64,000 nucleotides of DNA from NCBI GenBank assembly GCA_015066525.1, contig SVOG01000042.1, positions 1 to 64,000 on the forward strand, read 5' to 3'. Positions 15,204 through 45,651 of the stretch are shown piece by piece (the stretch's first letter is position 1; each line of letters opens with the position of its first letter). This DNA is from Oscillospiraceae bacterium (lineage in GTDB: Bacteria; Bacillota; Clostridia; Oscillospirales; Acutalibacteraceae). The notes beneath the pieces are model-generated. The model saw only the letters and a program-made list of their open reading frames with translations. It was not told the DNA's origin and made no database searches. The position numbers were made by a program, and so were the translations under genes.

Positions 15204-16274
15204 TTATAAGAGTTCTGCAACGAGGTCGCCCATCTCAGAGGTTGTTACAGCCTCAAAACCGTCCTCGTAAATATCGGGGGTGCGCGCCTTGGTGAGAGCG
15301 GCGTCAACAGCCTTTTCAATGGCGTCGGCTGCCTCGCTTTCGCCGAAGGTGTAGCGCAGCATCATCGCGCCGGAGAGGATGGTCGCAAGCGGGTTTGCCT
15401 TACCCTGTCCCGCGATATCCGGAGCGGAGCCGTGAATCGGCTCATAGAGTCCGAAGGTGCCCTCGGCAAGCGACGCGGACGCAAGCATACCGATGGAGCC
15501 GCTAATCATCGACGCCTCGTCGGAGAGGATGTCGCCGAAGATGTTGGAGGTGACGATGGTGTCGAACTGATTGGGATTGCGCACAAGCTGCATCGCGCAG
15601 TTATCGACATACATATAGGAAACCTCTACCTCGGGATAATCCTTCGCGGTCTCCTCCATCACCTTGCGCCAGAGACGTGAGGAATCGAGGACATTCGCCT
15701 TGTCGACACAGGTCAGTCGCTTCTCACGCTTCATCGCGTACTCGAAGCCCGCTTTAACGATGCGCTTAATCTCAGGGTAGGTGTAGCGCTCCGTGTCAAA
15801 GGCGCCGACCACGCCGTTTTCCTCGTAAGTGCCGCGGTCGCCGAAATAGATACCGCCGGTGAGCTCACGCACGATGAGAATATCCAGTCCGTCGCCGATG
15901 ATTTCCTCCTTAATTGGGGAGGCGCTCTTCAGCGGCGCAAAAATCTTCGCCGGGCGAAGGTTTGCAAAAAGACCTAAATCCTCGCGAATCGCAAGCAGTC
16001 CCTTCTCAGGGCGGTTGTTACCCGGCTGGCTGTCCCATTTCGGTCCGCCCACTGCGCCGAGCAGAACGGCATCCGATGCCTTGCACGCGTCCGCCGTTTC
16101 CTGCGGATAGGGTACTCCCGTCTCGTCAATCGCGCAGCCGCCGAGCAGCTGATAGTTATAATCGAAATGAAAGCCGAATTTCTCACCCGCTTTGTCGAGT
16201 ACTTTAATTGTCTCGTCAACAATTTCGGGTCCGATTCCGTCGCCTTTTAATACGGTAATATGATAATTCTTCAT
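15204..16274 (-). CDS. leuB: 3-isopropylmalate dehydrogenase
   Basis: A 356-aa NAD-dependent dehydrogenase that oxidises and decarboxylates 3-isopropylmalate to 2-oxoisocaproate in leucine synthesis. Signatures are the N-terminal [11 protein letters not shown], the arginine-bearing substrate loop ENLRPAKIF-type (here [11 protein letters not shown]), the [10 protein letters not shown] loop, the lysine/tyrosine pair [12 protein letters not shown] and the Mg-binding [13 protein letters not shown]. It lies 11 bp downstream of leuA and so falls under the same T-box control. leuC and leuD are not in this window. Confidence 0.95.
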
Positions 16275-16285
16275 ACTAATCTCCT

Positions 16286-18022
16286 TTAGCAGATGTCAAA
16301 GATGCCGGGCATTGTGTCGTCGCGGTAGGTATCGGGCTGGTCGCGGTTAATCGCGCAGATTATACCCTTCATCGACGCATAACTGATATTATGGCTCACG
16401 CCGATGCCGAACACGTCCTTACCTTCAGGATTCTTAAGGTGGATATAACTGATTGCCTTCGAGTCGGAGCCGACGGCAATCGCGTGCTCGCTGTAATCAA
16501 TGAACTCGTAACCCGTTACGCCGATTGCCTGAATCGCGGTGAAAAATGCACCGATGGGTCCGCTGCCCTCACCCGAAATATTAACAGGCTCGCCGCCCTT
16601 ATAGGTAATCGTGCCTTCGAACTTAACCTTGGAAAGCTCCTCGTCCTCAACCTTCTCCTCATACACCTTATAGTTGCGGAGTTTATAAGGGCCTGCGACA
16701 TTGCGGTACTCCTTCTGGAAGAGGTCGAATACCTCGCCGGCAGAAAGCTCCGTGCCCTTCTCATCGCAAGCTTTCTGGACAACCGCACCGAACTCGGGGT
16801 GCATAGCCTTAGGCATCTTGATACCGTAATCATTGGCAAGAATAAACGCCGTGCCGCCCTTACCCGACTGCGAGTTGATGCGGATAATCGGCTCGTATTC
16901 TCTGCCGACATCGGCGGGGTCGATGGGAAGATACGGAACTTCCCACATATCCGTTTTGCTCTCCTCCATATACATCTTGCCCTTATTGATTGCATCCTGG
17001 TGGGAGCCGGAGAAAGCGGTGAATACGAGTTCGCCCGCATACGGATGACGGGGCGGGACCTCCATCTTCGTGCAGCGCTCGTAAACCTCGCGGATTTTAT
17101 TAATATCGTGGAAATCAAGCTCGGGGTCGACGCCCTGTGTCCACATATTCAGCGCAAGCGTCACAACATCGACATTACCCGTTCTCTCGCCGTTGCCGAA
17201 GAGTGTACCCTCGACACGGTCGGCGCCAGCCATCAATGCAAGTTCGGTAGCCGCAACGCCTTCGCCGCGGTCATTATGCGGATGAAGGGAAATAATCGCA
17301 GCCTCACGGTTTGGCAAATGGCGGCAGAAATACTCAATCTGGTCCGCATAGCCGTTCGGGGTAGAGCACTCGACAGTCGACGGCAGGTTGAGGATAATCG
17401 GATTTTCCTTCGTAATATGGAGTTCCTCCATCACCCGACGGCAAATCTCAACCGCATTGTCCATCTCCGTTCCCGTAAAGGACTCGGGAGAATACTCAAA
17501 GCGGATATTCATATCGGGATTATTCTTCTTCTCTTCCTCGGTGAGCTCGTAGATGAGCTTGGCGCCCTTAACCGCGATGTCGATAACGCCCTGCATATCG
17601 GTCTTAAATACGACTTTACGCTGGAGGGTCGAGGTGGAATTATAAAAATGCACGATGACATTCTTCGCGCCGTGGATCGCTTCAAATGTTTTCTTAATAA
17701 GATGGGGTCTTGCCTGTACGAGCACCTGAATCGTCACGTCGTCGGGGATGTAACCGCCGTCGATGAGGGTGCGCAGAATCTCATACTCGGTCTCGCTCGC
17801 CGAGGGGAAACCGACCTCAATCTCCTTAAATCCGACATCCACAAGCGTCCGGAAGAACTCGAGCTTTTCCTGCAGATTCATCGGGTCAACGAGTGCCTGA
17901 TTACCGTCGCGCAAATCGACCGAGCACCATATGGGCGCCTTGGTAATCACATTGTTCGGCCACTGTCTGTCCGGAATCTGAATCGGAGTAAACGGTGTGT
18001 ACTTTTCAAAACCTTTTTTCAT
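16286..18022 (-). CDS. leuA: 2-isopropylmalate synthase (long, LeuA2-type)
   Basis: A 578-aa enzyme that condenses acetyl-CoA with 2-oxoisovalerate, the first committed step to leucine. The start [17 protein letters not shown] and the catalytic block [19 protein letters not shown] mark the longer form typical of actinobacteria and some clostridia. HPHNDRGEG holds the metal-binding His pair, and the [10 protein letters not shown] loop follows. The C-terminal 130 residues form the LeuA allosteric domain ([16 protein letters not shown]), where leucine feedback normally binds. AAGGAG precedes the ATG at a normal distance. It is preceded by a leucine-type T-box leader. Confidence 0.95.
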
Positions 18023-18046: not shown

Positions 18047-18377
18047 ATAATAAAAGCCCCCACACTTGCGTATAGGGGCGTAATAACACGCGGTACCACC
18101 CTACTTCGGCAGAAGGTAAACTGCCCTTTAGCGTCAAACAACGCCTTAACCGATAACGAGGTTAAAGGTAAACTGCCCTTTAGCGTCAAACAACGCCTTA
18201 ACCGATAACGAGGTTAACCGTCTGCTCCTATTGATTTCTATTCAGAGCAGCGACTCCGCAGAGAGCTATACACTCAACACTTTGTATCGGCTCACACCAA
18301 CCGCCGACTCGCTGAAACGAAAATGAAGAATCTTTTTCTGCATCACAGTCTTTTGTAGGTACTGTTAAATTTTCAGT
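18047..18377 (-). promoter_or_regulatory. T-box leader RNA of leuAB
   Basis: The minus strand contains the T-box AGGGTGGTACCGCG at 18102-18089. Its TGGT would pair with an ACCA tRNA acceptor end, as expected for tRNA-Leu. A GCCCC/GGGGC hairpin followed by TTTTATT (about 18080-18049) is the terminator, and a long upstream part begins with a stem-I-like CAGCGA/TCGCTG pairing. Uncharged tRNA-Leu should stabilise the antiterminator and switch on leuA-leuB. The specifier codon could not be fixed by eye; a CTC lies in the expected part of stem I. The linker before the T-box carries a 52-bp tandem duplication. Confidence 0.88.
18113..18216. repeat. Perfect 52-bp tandem duplication within the T-box leader
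   Basis: Bases 18113-18164 and 18165-18216 are identical over 52 bp, directly abutting. Each unit contains three small potential hairpins (AACC/GGTT, GCGT/ACGC and AAGG/CCTT on the RNA strand). The duplication lies between stem I and the T-box/antiterminator. Confidence 0.95.
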
Positions 18378-18383
18378 AAAATT

Positions 18384-18411
18384 ATTATAGCAGATTAAAA
18401 ATATTTGTCAA
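18384..18411 (-). promoter_or_regulatory. Promoter of the leuAB T-box transcript
   Basis: A consensus TTGACA, a 16-bp spacer and TATAAT on the minus strand, placing the transcript start near 18377. Confidence 0.85.
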
Positions 18412-18422
18412 GTGTGAAATAG

Positions 18423-18640
18423 GTGCGACCGTATGAAAACGATGCGAACGCATGCGAACGGATGCGAACGCATGCGTTCGATGCCGATATAGATATAGAA
18501 ATAGATATAAATATAGAATAAGATAATGATATAGAATCAGATTTAGATAATGATAGTGATACAGAAAAAGAAGCAGTAAGGACTGCGGCGCCCGAACCGG
18601 CGATGGAACAAACAGATGACGGCATCAAAAAAAGCGGCAA
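18423..18640 (+). pseudogene. Decayed low-complexity coding remnant, possibly from a phage replisome organiser
   Basis: In one plus-strand frame the region reads VRPYENDANACERMRTHAFD, then an alternating Asp-Ile/Glu-Ile stretch, a TAA stop, then a continuing acidic Asp-rich stretch ending in TEKEAV and a Pro/Ala-rich segment. The DNA shows GAACGCATGC-type and GATATA hexamer repeats. Clostridial DnaD-like replisome organisers often carry just such dicodon-repeat linkers. There is no start codon, no Shine-Dalgarno and an in-frame stop, so this is not an intact gene. The assignment to a phage gene is inference; it could also be a simple microsatellite. It fills the gap between the leuA promoter and the ABC transporter terminator. 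Confidence 0.35.
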
Positions 18641-18653
18641 CGCCGCCTTTTTT
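18627..18653. terminator. Terminator of the ABC transporter operon
   Basis: AAAGCGGC/GCCGCTTT-type stem with a GTT loop, flanked by A- and T-runs, so active in both directions. It directly abuts the stop codon of the minus-strand ATPase gene. Confidence 0.8.
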
Positions 18654-19449
18654 ATTCTGCCAGAAGCATTCTGTCGTTTTCGAGGTCCTCGCCCGCGCCC
18701 GTCTTGAATTTCTCAAGCAGGTCGGATTTATGGAGAGCCTTCTTTTCCTCGCCCGACACGTCGTAAATAATCTTGCCGTCGTTCATCATAATCAGACGGT
18801 TGCCGATATTGATAGCGTCGCGCATATTATGGGTAATCATAATCGTAGTGAGGTTATTCTCGCTGACAATTTTTTCAGTAAGGTCGAGCACCTTCTTCGC
18901 CGTCTTGGGGTCGAGGGCAGCGGTGTGTTCGTCAAGTAAAAGGAGTTTGGGCTTTTTAAGCGTCGCCATAAGCAAAGTGATTGCCTGGCGCTGACCGCCC
19001 GAAAGGAGTCCGACCTTGGAAGTCAGTCTGTCCTCAAGACCGAGGTCGAGATGGGCGAGCATTTCTCTGAGCTGTTCCTTTTCCTTGCGGCGTACGCCGG
19101 GAGCAAGTCCTCTGCGCTGACCTCTGCGGGAAGCGAGCGCGAGATTCTCGAGAATCTGCATATTCGCAGCCGTACCCGTCATCGGGTCCTGGAATACTCT
19201 ACCGATATATTTCGCTCTCTTGTGCTCGGGAAGTTTGGTCACATCCACGCCGTCGATGGTGATCGTGCCGCAGTCGACGGGATACACGCCCGCGACCATA
19301 TTCAGCATCGTGGATTTGCCTGCGCCGTTGCCGCCAATAACGGTAACGAAATCGCCCTCATTGAGCACGAGGTCGATGCCACGCAGCGCCTTTTTCTCAT
19401 TTATCGTACCGGGGTTAAAGGTTTTGTGAACATTCTTAATTTCGAGCAT
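18652..19449 (-). CDS. ABC transporter ATP-binding protein
   Basis: A 265-aa ATPase that powers the importer formed with the permease and binding protein upstream. Walker A (GGNGAGKST), Q-loop (GRVFQDPMTG), signature (LLSGGQRQA), Walker B (LLLLDEHTAAL) and the switch His (ITHNM) are all in place. It resembles the ATPase partner of PF04392-type binding proteins (for example TrpXYZ systems). Its start overlaps the permease stop (TAATG), so translation is coupled. The substrate is not deducible from the ATPase. Confidence 0.9.
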   Translation of the reverse strand: MLEIKNVHKTFNPGTINEKKALRGIDLVLNEGDFVTVIGGNGAGKSTMLNMVAGVYPVDCGTITIDGVDVTKLPEHKRAKYIGRVFQDPMTGTAANMQILENLALASRRGQRRGLAPGVRRKEKEQLREMLAHLDLGLEDRLTSKVGLLSGGQRQAITLLMATLKKPKLLLLDEHTAALDPKTAKKVLDLTEKIVSENNLTTIMITHNMRDAINIGNRLIMMNDGKIIYDVSGEEKKALHKSDLLEKFKTGAGEDLENDRMLLAE

Positions 19450-20351
19450 TATTCCTTAACCTCCTTTACCTTGACTGTCTTGGAGGCAATCTTATTCTTC
19501 CAATACGGAACGCCGAGGAAGATTGCCACAACGAGTGCAATAAAGAGCTTGAGGTCGTTCGGGTTGAGACCGAGACGAAGTACAAGCGTAATCACCACAT
19601 AGTAGATAACGCCGCCGATAGCCACCGCAACAAGTTTGAGCGCAAAATTCTTGAAAATCTTGCCGAACAATACTTCTCCGATGATGACTGCAGCAAGACC
19701 GATAACAATCGCGCCACGGCCCATATTGACATCCGCATAACCCTGGAACTGGGTCAGCATTGCGCCGGAAAGTGCAACGATACCGTTGGAAAGCACGAGA
19801 CCGATAACCTTATTCGTATCGGTATTGATACCGTTTGCGCGGGACATCGCCTCGTTATTACCCGTTGCTCTGAGCCCGAAACCGAGCTCCGTGCCGAAGA
19901 ACCAGTACAAAACGCAGACGACGACAACCACGAAGAGCGCGCCGATAATCAGCGTCTTAGGTACCTCGCCGAGTGAGAACAAAAGGTGATAGTTGCGTGC
20001 GCTGATGGGCTGATTCGCCTTGTTGCCGAGCAGTCGCAGATTCACGGAATACAGCGAAAGCTGGGTCAGAATACCCGCGAGGATGGCAGGAATACCGAAT
20101 TTCGTATGGAAAATACCCGTCGCAAGACCCGCAATGCATCCTGCGCAAAATGCTAAAATCATACTGATATAGACATTCATGCCGTGCGTCATACAGAGCA
20201 CGAGCATCGCGCCGCCCGTACCCATCGAGCCGTCGACGGTCAGGTCGGCTACGTCGAGAACTCTGAAAGTGATATACACACCGATTGCCATGATGCCCCA
20301 AATAAGTCCCTGGGCAGCGGCTCCCGGCAGTGCAGCTAAGAATCCACTCAT
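19449..20351 (-). CDS. ABC transporter permease
   Basis: A 300-aa BPD_transp_2-type permease with about eight to nine hydrophobic helices. The conserved start GAAAQGLIWGIMAIGVYITFRVLDVADLTVDGS is typical of permeases partnered with PF04392 binding proteins. The loop LGFGLRATGNNEAMSRANGIN would contact the ATPase. It lies between the binding protein and the ATPase genes. A terminator and a 167-bp palindromic element separate it from the binding-protein gene, so it is likely transcribed by read-through. Substrate is unknown; amino acids such as tryptophan or tyrosine are known for some relatives. Confidence 0.9.
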   Translation of the reverse strand: MSGFLAALPGAAAQGLIWGIMAIGVYITFRVLDVADLTVDGSMGTGGAMLVLCMTHGMNVYISMILAFCAGCIAGLATGIFHTKFGIPAILAGILTQLSLYSVNLRLLGNKANQPISARNYHLLFSLGEVPKTLIIGALFVVVVVCVLYWFFGTELGFGLRATGNNEAMSRANGINTDTNKVIGLVLSNGIVALSGAMLTQFQGYADVNMGRGAIVIGLAAVIIGEVLFGKIFKNFALKLVAVAIGGVIYYVVITLVLRLGLNPNDLKLFIALVVAIFLGVPYWKNKIASKTVKVKEVKE

Positions 20352-20438
20352 AATGTATCTCCTTAAAGATAATTTTTATTAATAGTTATAAAATCAGCAA
20401 TATATAGAATATCAAAAAAGTGTCAAAAGGTCAAGAAG

Positions 20439-20605
20439 TTTTTTAGGCTCAAGGCTCAAGGATTGCCCTGCGGGCAAAAGGCTCAAGAGAAACGGCGGGC
20501 GTTGCCCGCACCCAGAATTAAAATTGCCGTGCGCAACACCCAACACCTTGAGCCTTGCGTGCGCCAGCGCGCTCCTTAAGCGCAGCGCTCCTTGAGCCTA
20601 AAAAA
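20439..20605. repeat. GC-rich intergenic palindromic element
   Basis: Outer arms TTTTTTAGGCTCAAGG and CCTTGAGCCTAAAAAA (16 bp, perfect) enclose about 135 bp of further hairpins (TTGCCC/GGGCAA, CGGGC/GCCCG, AGCGC/GCGCT) and repeated GGCTCAAG words. It has no coding capacity. It interrupts the ABC importer operon between the binding-protein terminator and the permease. It could be a REP/MITE-like element or a very stable RNA structure. Confidence 0.75.
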
Positions 20606-20639
20606 TTACAGCCGCTCATCGAGCGGCTGTAATTTTTTG
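20602..20639. terminator. Terminator after the ABC binding-protein gene
   Basis: AATTACAGCCGCTC/GAGCGGCTGTAATT is a perfect 14-bp stem with a 3-nt loop, followed by TTTTTT on both strands. It lies immediately after the binding-protein stop codon. Partial read-through would give more binding protein than permease and ATPase. Confidence 0.88.
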
Positions 20640-20645
20640 ATTGAA

Positions 20646-21674
20646 TTATTCAGCGTCGAGCGCCAGCTCCTCATAATCATCGGGAACGGTGATGCCGAGT
20701 GCCTTTGCACGCTCGGGAACATACTTAAAGATAACATCGTCCTTCGTCGGAATCATAATATCCATCGTTGCCGGGTCTTTGCCGTCCTTGAGGATTTCGT
20801 AAGCCATCTTGCCCGCATTTCTGCCGATAGCGTCATAGCTGATGGAAAGTGTTGCAAAACCGCAACCCTTGCAGATACCCTCTTCGCCGGCGATAACCGG
20901 GATATTCGCCTTGGAAACGATGGGTTCGATGGTGCCGGTAGCCTGTGCCATTGTGTTATCCGTCGGGATATAAAGTGCGTCACAGGTATCGCAAGCGGAC
21001 TGTACAACCGATGCGATATCGTTGGTGTCAGCAGCAGTGAATTCCTTAGCCTCGATGCCGAGCTTCTTCAGTTCCTCACCGACTACCTTCGCCTGGTAAA
21101 CAGAGTTTGCCTCGGCGGAGCAGTAAATGATGCCGACTTTCTTGGCATTCGGGGTAAGGGTCTTAAACATGGCAGCCTGCTCGGAAAGCGGTGCGAGGTC
21201 GGAGGTACCGGTTACATTGATACCGGTAGCGCCCGTCCACTTGTCCTCGGGGATATCAAGCGCACTTGCGAAATCAGTAACAGCGGTAGCCACAATCGGA
21301 ATGGTTGTGGTCGACTGAGCCGCAGCCTGAAGAACAGGTGTCGGGTTTGCGAGAATGAGGTCAACGCCGTCCGCTGCAAAGCCGTTTGTGATGGTAGCGC
21401 AGGTCGGGATGTCGCCCGCTGCATTCTCTTCTACGAATTCAATCTTGTTTCCGTCAGCCTCAGCAAGCTTGGTAAGCTCTTCTTTGAAGCCGTTGGTTGC
21501 TGCGTCAAGCGCAGGGTGCTGTACGAGCTGAGCAACACCGACCTTCCAGGTCTTACCTTCCGCCGTGCTCGCATTTTCTGTCTGTGTTCCGCCGTTGGCG
21601 CATGCTGCGAAGATGCCGCCTACCATTGCAACCGCGAGTCCAACGCCGAGAACTTTCTTTACAACTTTATTCAT
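20646..21674 (-). CDS. ABC transporter substrate-binding lipoprotein (PF04392 type)
   Basis: A 342-aa lipoprotein of the ABC_sub_bind family. The signal MNKVVKKVLGVGLAVAMVGG ends in the lipobox FAAC, placing the lipidated Cys near residue 25, followed by a Thr/Ser/Glu linker. The Rossmann-like lobes show KWKVGVAQLVQHPALDA-type and GVDLILANPTPVLQAA-type segments, and the second half includes KKVGIIYCSAEANS and PVIAGEEGICKGCGFATLSISY, usual in this family. ATG at 21674 has AAGGAG upstream and is chosen over the ORF-track start 15 codons earlier. Ligand unknown; no T-box or other riboswitch was found upstream. Confidence 0.9.
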   Translation of the reverse strand: MNKVVKKVLGVGLAVAMVGGIFAACANGGTQTENASTAEGKTWKVGVAQLVQHPALDAATNGFKEELTKLAEADGNKIEFVEENAAGDIPTCATITNGFAADGVDLILANPTPVLQAAAQSTTTIPIVATAVTDFASALDIPEDKWTGATGINVTGTSDLAPLSEQAAMFKTLTPNAKKVGIIYCSAEANSVYQAKVVGEELKKLGIEAKEFTAADTNDIASVVQSACDTCDALYIPTDNTMAQATGTIEPIVSKANIPVIAGEEGICKGCGFATLSISYDAIGRNAGKMAYEILKDGKDPATMDIMIPTKDDVIFKYVPERAKALGITVPDDYEELALDAE

Positions 21675-21719
21675 CTGTAAAATCTCCTTTATGTATTTTT
21701 CGATTTTGTTGCAAGTCAC

Positions 21720-45412: not shown

Positions 45413-45617
45413 AAATGAGTACGACGAAAAAGCCGCAAACACCCATCCCTCTTCCGCTTGCCCAAGAGTATGAATTAACGCTGAAACTCGTCTCCCGACT
45501 TATGACAACACAAATCGCCTTCTCAGTTTCCCGATGGCTGATGATTTGCTCTCCCGTCAAATACGGTAATGGCGGTTGTGCAGGATTCGCACCTGCTTCC
45601 GTTAGTTTCAGATTTGC
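45385..45617 (-). ncRNA. Cobalamin riboswitch
   Basis: About 230 nt of leader RNA upstream of the exported toroid protein. Conserved cobalamin-aptamer elements appear in order on the minus strand: GGTGCGAATCCTGCACAACC near the 5' end (45571-45600 region, the closest relative of the B12 box partner), AGCCATCGGGAAACTGAGAAGGCG in the core, AGTCGGGAGACGAG (the conserved AGTCxGGAGAC element), and a final terminator hairpin. When cobalamin is bound, transcription should stop. The sole downstream gene is the 522-aa exported protein. Whether the ligand preference is adenosyl-, methyl- or hydroxocobalamin cannot be read by eye. Confidence 0.92.
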
Positions 45618-45623
45618 AAAAAC

Positions 45624-45651
45624 ATTATAGCATATTCAGTAAAAAATACAA
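45624..45651 (-). promoter_or_regulatory. Promoter of the riboswitch transcript
   Basis: TTGTAT, a 16-bp spacer and TATAAT with an upstream TGC (extended -10) on the minus strand, placing the RNA start near 45617. Confidence 0.75.

Follow-up and report, generated by a model that had tools for sequence, protein, structure and literature searches.

A perfect 52-bp tandem repeat in the linker of a leucine T-box leader, probably a recent and near-neutral duplication

Two parts of T-box riboswitches, the IIA/B pseudoknot and the motif RRRxG-stem III-AA, have been described as needed (PMC7583486). The stem II region spans 10 to 200 nt across T-boxes (PMC7583486), so added length is tolerated there in general. 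Duplication is also known in this family: the tandem or double T-boxes of Firmicutes are recent duplications found in several amino acid operons, they repeat whole riboswitches, and they may act cooperatively (PMC9413887). The leader described here resembles the double T-boxes in carrying what appears to be a recent duplication within a T-box leader. In contrast, only the segment from IIB through a linker hairpin (here, hairpin X) to half of stem III is repeated, with no second specifier, antiterminator or terminator; a double T-box reading was rejected, since the leader has a single RF00230 match and a single UGGU bulge. A literature search on partial tandem duplication within T-box leaders found no matching paper.

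The window (the whole 64,000-nt stretch of DNA that was analyzed) comes from a gut-type Clostridia genome assembled in 66 contigs and estimated to be 73.9% complete. The first-pass annotation had spoken of a leuAB leader, and both genes are borne out by NCBIfam models above their cut-offs (Table 1). The leader is a genuine T-box (RF00230), its match lying above the gathering cut-off of 93 bits. Like a class I transcriptional leucine T-box, it presents in order stem I, a CUC specifier, stem II, IIA/B with its F-box, stem III, the T-box/antiterminator and a terminator. The antiterminator and terminator share a GCCCC strand and hence compete with each other. The predicted specifier, CUC at 18265-18263, is assigned by position and sequence context only; read in this way it is a leucine codon, in accord with the downstream leuA-leuB, and the surrounding AGCTCTCTG / AACTC context is kept among leuA leaders. 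The recognition of this leader as a T-box draws on the covariance match, the specifier, IIA/B with the F-box, the RRRxG-stem III-AA motif, and the opposition of antiterminator and terminator. Both promoter hexamers are kept in aligned relatives. Among the six tRNAs in the sampled part of the genome (the lesser share of it), none is tRNA-Leu-GAG. The same genome has five other T-boxes, and no such repeat is present in those recovered by a core-motif scan; one of them (L006) has a hairpin similar to X (GCATATTGTCAGATATGC).

Table 1. Coordinates of the leuA-leuB operon, its leader and the elements of the repeat, in window positions
Feature	Coordinates	Strand	Evidence
leuB, 3-isopropylmalate dehydrogenase	15204..16274	-	TIGR00169 507 bits, cut-off 353
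leuA, 2-isopropylmalate synthase, 578 aa, leuA_yeast-type family	16286..18022	-	TIGR00970 748 bits, cut-off 697
Intrinsic terminator GCCCCUAUACGCAAGUGUGGGGGC + U run	18052..18079	-	predicted pairing probability 1.0, one or two copies
T-box leader, whole RF00230 match	18071..18355	-	cmscan 109.5 bits, E 2.6e-23, model 1-219 complete
Antiterminator with T-box AGGGUGGUACCGCG; UGGU 18098-18095	18074..18102	-	Rfam alignment
Functional stem III with flanks, 3' AA	18105..18129	-	RRRxG-stem III-AA motif fit; predicted pairing 0.90-0.93
Purine string AAAGG; stem III GGCAG/CUGCC	18129-18125; 18125-18121 with 18112-18108	-	
Copy 2 of 52-nt unit	18114..18165	-	repeat detection; 1 more matching base at 18113
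Linker hairpin X, copy 2	18130..18145	-	identical to copy 1
Spare IIB arms + F-box in copy 2	18146..18165	-	sequence; predicted pairing probability 0.64-0.83
Copy 1 of 52-nt unit (5' copy in transcript)	18166..18217	-	repeat detection
Orphan purine string AAAGG + 5' half of stem III, copy 1	18166..18181	-	sequence
Linker hairpin X, copy 1 (GGCGUUGUUUGACGCU)	18182..18197	-	covariation in aligned modules
IIA/B pseudoknot	18198..18221	-	IIB covariation, 112 aligned modules
F-box TCGTTA	18211-18206	-	
IIB UUAACC/GGUUAA	18217-18212 with 18203-18198	-	
IIA ACG/CGU	18221-18219 with 18210-18208	-	
Stem II, CTGCTC ... GAGCAG	18222..18250	-	Rfam alignment; compensatory changes visible among relatives
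Stem I	18259..18355	-	Rfam alignment
Leader promoter: TTGACA 18411-18406, 16-nt spacer, TATAAT 18389-18384	18384..18411	-	read in sequence

Several neighboring features may be mentioned here. Directly upstream of the leader promoter, 18424-18555 holds two tandem tracts (AACGCATGCG repeats and GATATA-like repeats), the aligned part of which differs from the leuA leader of the nearest relative compared (L007). The next operon on the same strand, at 18652-21719, encodes an ABC ATPase, a permease and a substrate-binding protein; the last resembles TrpX, with a score of 232 bits that is below the cut-off of 390. A cobalamin riboswitch (62.5 bits) lies on the minus strand at 45468-45644.

The repeat itself is as exact as a repeat can be. 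Tandem Repeats Finder reports, at 18113-18217, a period of 52, 2.0 copies, 100% match, 0 indels and a score of 210, which no other tandem repeat in the window approaches. At period 52 the exact run is 53 nt, giving an array of 105 nt in which the unit ends share 1 nt; the copy-copy junction reads TTTACCTTTAACCTCG. Apart from this one, the longest exact self-match is 11 nt among some 132 distinct segments taken around T-box-like cores in this genome and its relatives, and the 53-nt self-match is not a product of chance. The perfect 52-bp tandem duplication first proposed at 18113-18216 is thus placed correctly to within 1 nt. The stated location between stem I and the T-box holds too and can be narrowed: on the minus strand, the repeat follows stem II, opening in the IIA/B pseudoknot loop and closing in the stem III loop. 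In the Rfam alignment, most of it is handled as inserted sequence separating IIA/B from stem III. Exact tandem duplications of such size are rare, with two arrays in 393 kb of this genome (the sample for tandem arrays, window included) and one in 470 kb of relatives. The other array in this genome (L169, contig C40, 17651-17900) is an intergenic 83-nt unit (GCTTCACCGAGTTCGATGAACTTTGTTAAAAAGGCTCAAGG...) in nearly three, almost identical copies.

What was doubled? In transcript order, the unit consists of the IIB 5' strand, the F-box, the IIB 3' strand, hairpin X, the purine string AAAGG, and the 5' half of stem III with its loop. Covariation supports IIB and hairpin X across 112 aligned modules, a set that includes a few chance segments that are not leaders. 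IIB covaries (for example, one AT/GC pair is standard in 104 of the 112 modules versus 79 by shuffle), and the CGTTA of the F-box is kept in most modules. In hairpin X, four core pairs are standard in 111 of 112; A-U, C-G, U-A and G-C exchange at one position, and for the most variable pair the shuffle gives 50 of 112. More broadly, most leuA T-boxes of these Clostridia have hairpin X between IIA/B and stem III, with a loop-side UUG-NNN-GA motif and strong covariation; the RF00230 consensus is without a hairpin at that position.

Alignment to single-copy leaders places one breakpoint in the IIA/B loop and the other in the stem III loop. With both breaks in loops, IIA/B and stem III each survive once in full in the two-copy leader, stem III by the antiterminator, where the RRRxG-stem III-AA motif reads AAAGG-GCAG/CUGC-CGAA, drawn from copy 2 and its 3' flank. 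The spare IIB of copy 2 has no 5' IIA strand, so only a simple UUAACC/GGUUAA hairpin is possible there. A stem III built from the 5' half in copy 1 and the 3' strand was considered and rejected, its long-range pairing probability being 0.01.

We propose a mechanism in which copy 1 and the upstream ACG would complete the IIA/B pseudoknot, which would stack on stem II, and copy 2 and the downstream CUGCC would complete the purine string-stem III element abutting the antiterminator. The added 52 nt would then amount to a spare module (one half of stem III, an IIB hairpin with no IIA strand, and a second X) sitting where T-boxes tolerate changes in length. In this model, uncharged tRNA-Leu would still stabilize the antiterminator and leucine would still cause termination; any shift in timing or in the entropy of tRNA capture would be small at most.

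The first-pass annotation had suggested that extra hairpins could change antiterminator folding. The prediction does not bear this out: with one copy or two, stem III pairing and terminator formation are alike (Table 1), and cross-copy pairings reach at most 0.08 in the predicted ensemble. Both copies are predicted to form the IIB and X hairpins, though to different extents. The folds concern secondary structure only, the pseudoknot and the tRNA-bound state lying outside the prediction. As modeled, the switch probably still works, its tether lengthened by 52 nt that must be transcribed ahead of the T-box. Later transcription of the T-box follows from that length, and an effect on the timing of leucine-dependent termination, the other consequence suggested at first, is possible.

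Comparison with related leuA leaders, which had been proposed as a check, found one copy in every other leader compared, in the genus and beyond, and two in none. The nearest relative compared, L007, has a LeuA 96% identical and a single copy; its sequence is identical to that of L088 in genome G068. Unlike the usual leucine T-box, the present leader has 52 nt of its linker doubled, and its spacing from the CGTTA of the F-box to the T-box is 110 nt versus mostly 54 to 66 nt in about 130 leaders. Five other leaders have 72 to 91 nt; three of these have a longer hairpin X or stem III, and two were counted from an unrelated upstream CGTTA. The leuA leaders L042 and L082 (larger hairpin X) and L074 (larger stem III) have a longer path from F-box to T-box by these routes and not by tandem repetition. 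The tight hold on linker length within the genus hints that an additional 52 nt might carry a cost. Across 398 genomes of the family, a double TCGTTA before the T-box occurs only in this genome. Double CCGTTA matches in L173 and L174, from the same search, were rejected: each is CCGTTAGCGG lying upstream of the usual F-box region, with no tandem repetition. The same duplication was also sought in viral contigs, where a 22-mer internal to the unit was not found.

The copies differ at 0 of 52 positions, and they share the marks of their lineage. Both read GCGUUG...GACGC in hairpin X, and L007 reads GCAUUG...GAUGC, a compensatory change (GCG..CGC versus GCA..UGC); the window form is also found in L089, L092 and L093. 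Since both copies carry the window form, the doubling arose after that state. Identical copies that share the substitutions of their lineage imply either a recent duplication or a misassembly. The suggestion of a recent event thus agrees with the single-copy relatives and the lineage-specific bases. An active slippage site, also suggested, finds no support as the source of the doubling, the single-copy ancestor having only 1 nt of match at the unit ends. Slippage on the imperfect ends GTTAACCT/GTTTACCT was rejected as well, for these lie 45 nt apart, not 52.

Could the second copy exist in the assembly alone, as the first-pass annotation also allowed? The genome would then be one-copy, and the assembler would have placed two overlapping ends side by side, with the overlap left in twice. 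The fragmentary state of the genome, the perfection of the copies and the single copy in every relative would all fit such an error. However, short-read assemblers collapse tandem copies more often than they create them, and 52 to 53 is not a usual k-mer size. The repeat is internal to an 84-kb contig, about 18 kb from one end, and the sole other near-exact array in the 393 kb has an 83-nt period with imperfect further copies; the different sizes (52 versus 83) speak against one systematic overlap length. We consider an artefact unlikely, though by no means far-fetched. Our preferred reading, which we hold to be probable with moderate confidence, is a recent, lineage-specific, near-neutral 52-bp duplication in the linker of a leucine T-box riboswitch that is ordinary in other respects, in a single genome; that both needed parts are intact was counted in its favor. 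We infer that the cells do carry the repeat, that it is near neutral, and that slippage will tend to collapse it again.

If the repeat is real, might it do something? The second module could have been kept because it alters the response to leucine. For instance, a T-box emerging later behind RNA polymerase might leave more time to capture tRNA, or a longer tether might separate the part that binds the tRNA anticodon from the part that binds the tRNA end. An insertion in the transcribed linker that adds two predicted hairpins, where linker length is otherwise tight in relatives, is what such tuning might look like, but the repeat occurs in one genome, with no conservation and no sign of selection, and the predicted switch hairpins are unchanged; we regard adaptive tuning as improbable. 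It is also conceivable that copy number varies within the population, from one to two or more, through ongoing slippage, as a weak contingency locus. A perfect 52-bp direct repeat, once formed, is prone to slippage and is a substrate for the RecA-independent kind, and two other tandem tracts lie just upstream; against this, no relative has any other copy number, and the family genomes searched hold no other leader with a tandem double F-box, making such a polymorphism quite doubtful. A more speculative idea is that a self-compatible cassette has doubled the tether between sensor and discriminator. Since one end of the unit lies in one loop and the other end in a second loop, the switch would go on working after every further copy, and copy number could serve as a reversible tuning dial for the leucine response; we give this very little credence.

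In total, the leader is best described as an ordinary leucine T-box to which a partial duplication, private to it, has been added. Existing knowledge of T-boxes is unchanged by it, and one genome without replication offers little basis for claims about function. Nonetheless, if the duplication is real, it would provide a clean natural experiment on the amount of extra RNA that a T-box can tolerate between its tRNA-anticodon part and the part sensing aminoacylation, with the one-copy sister leaders as the comparison.
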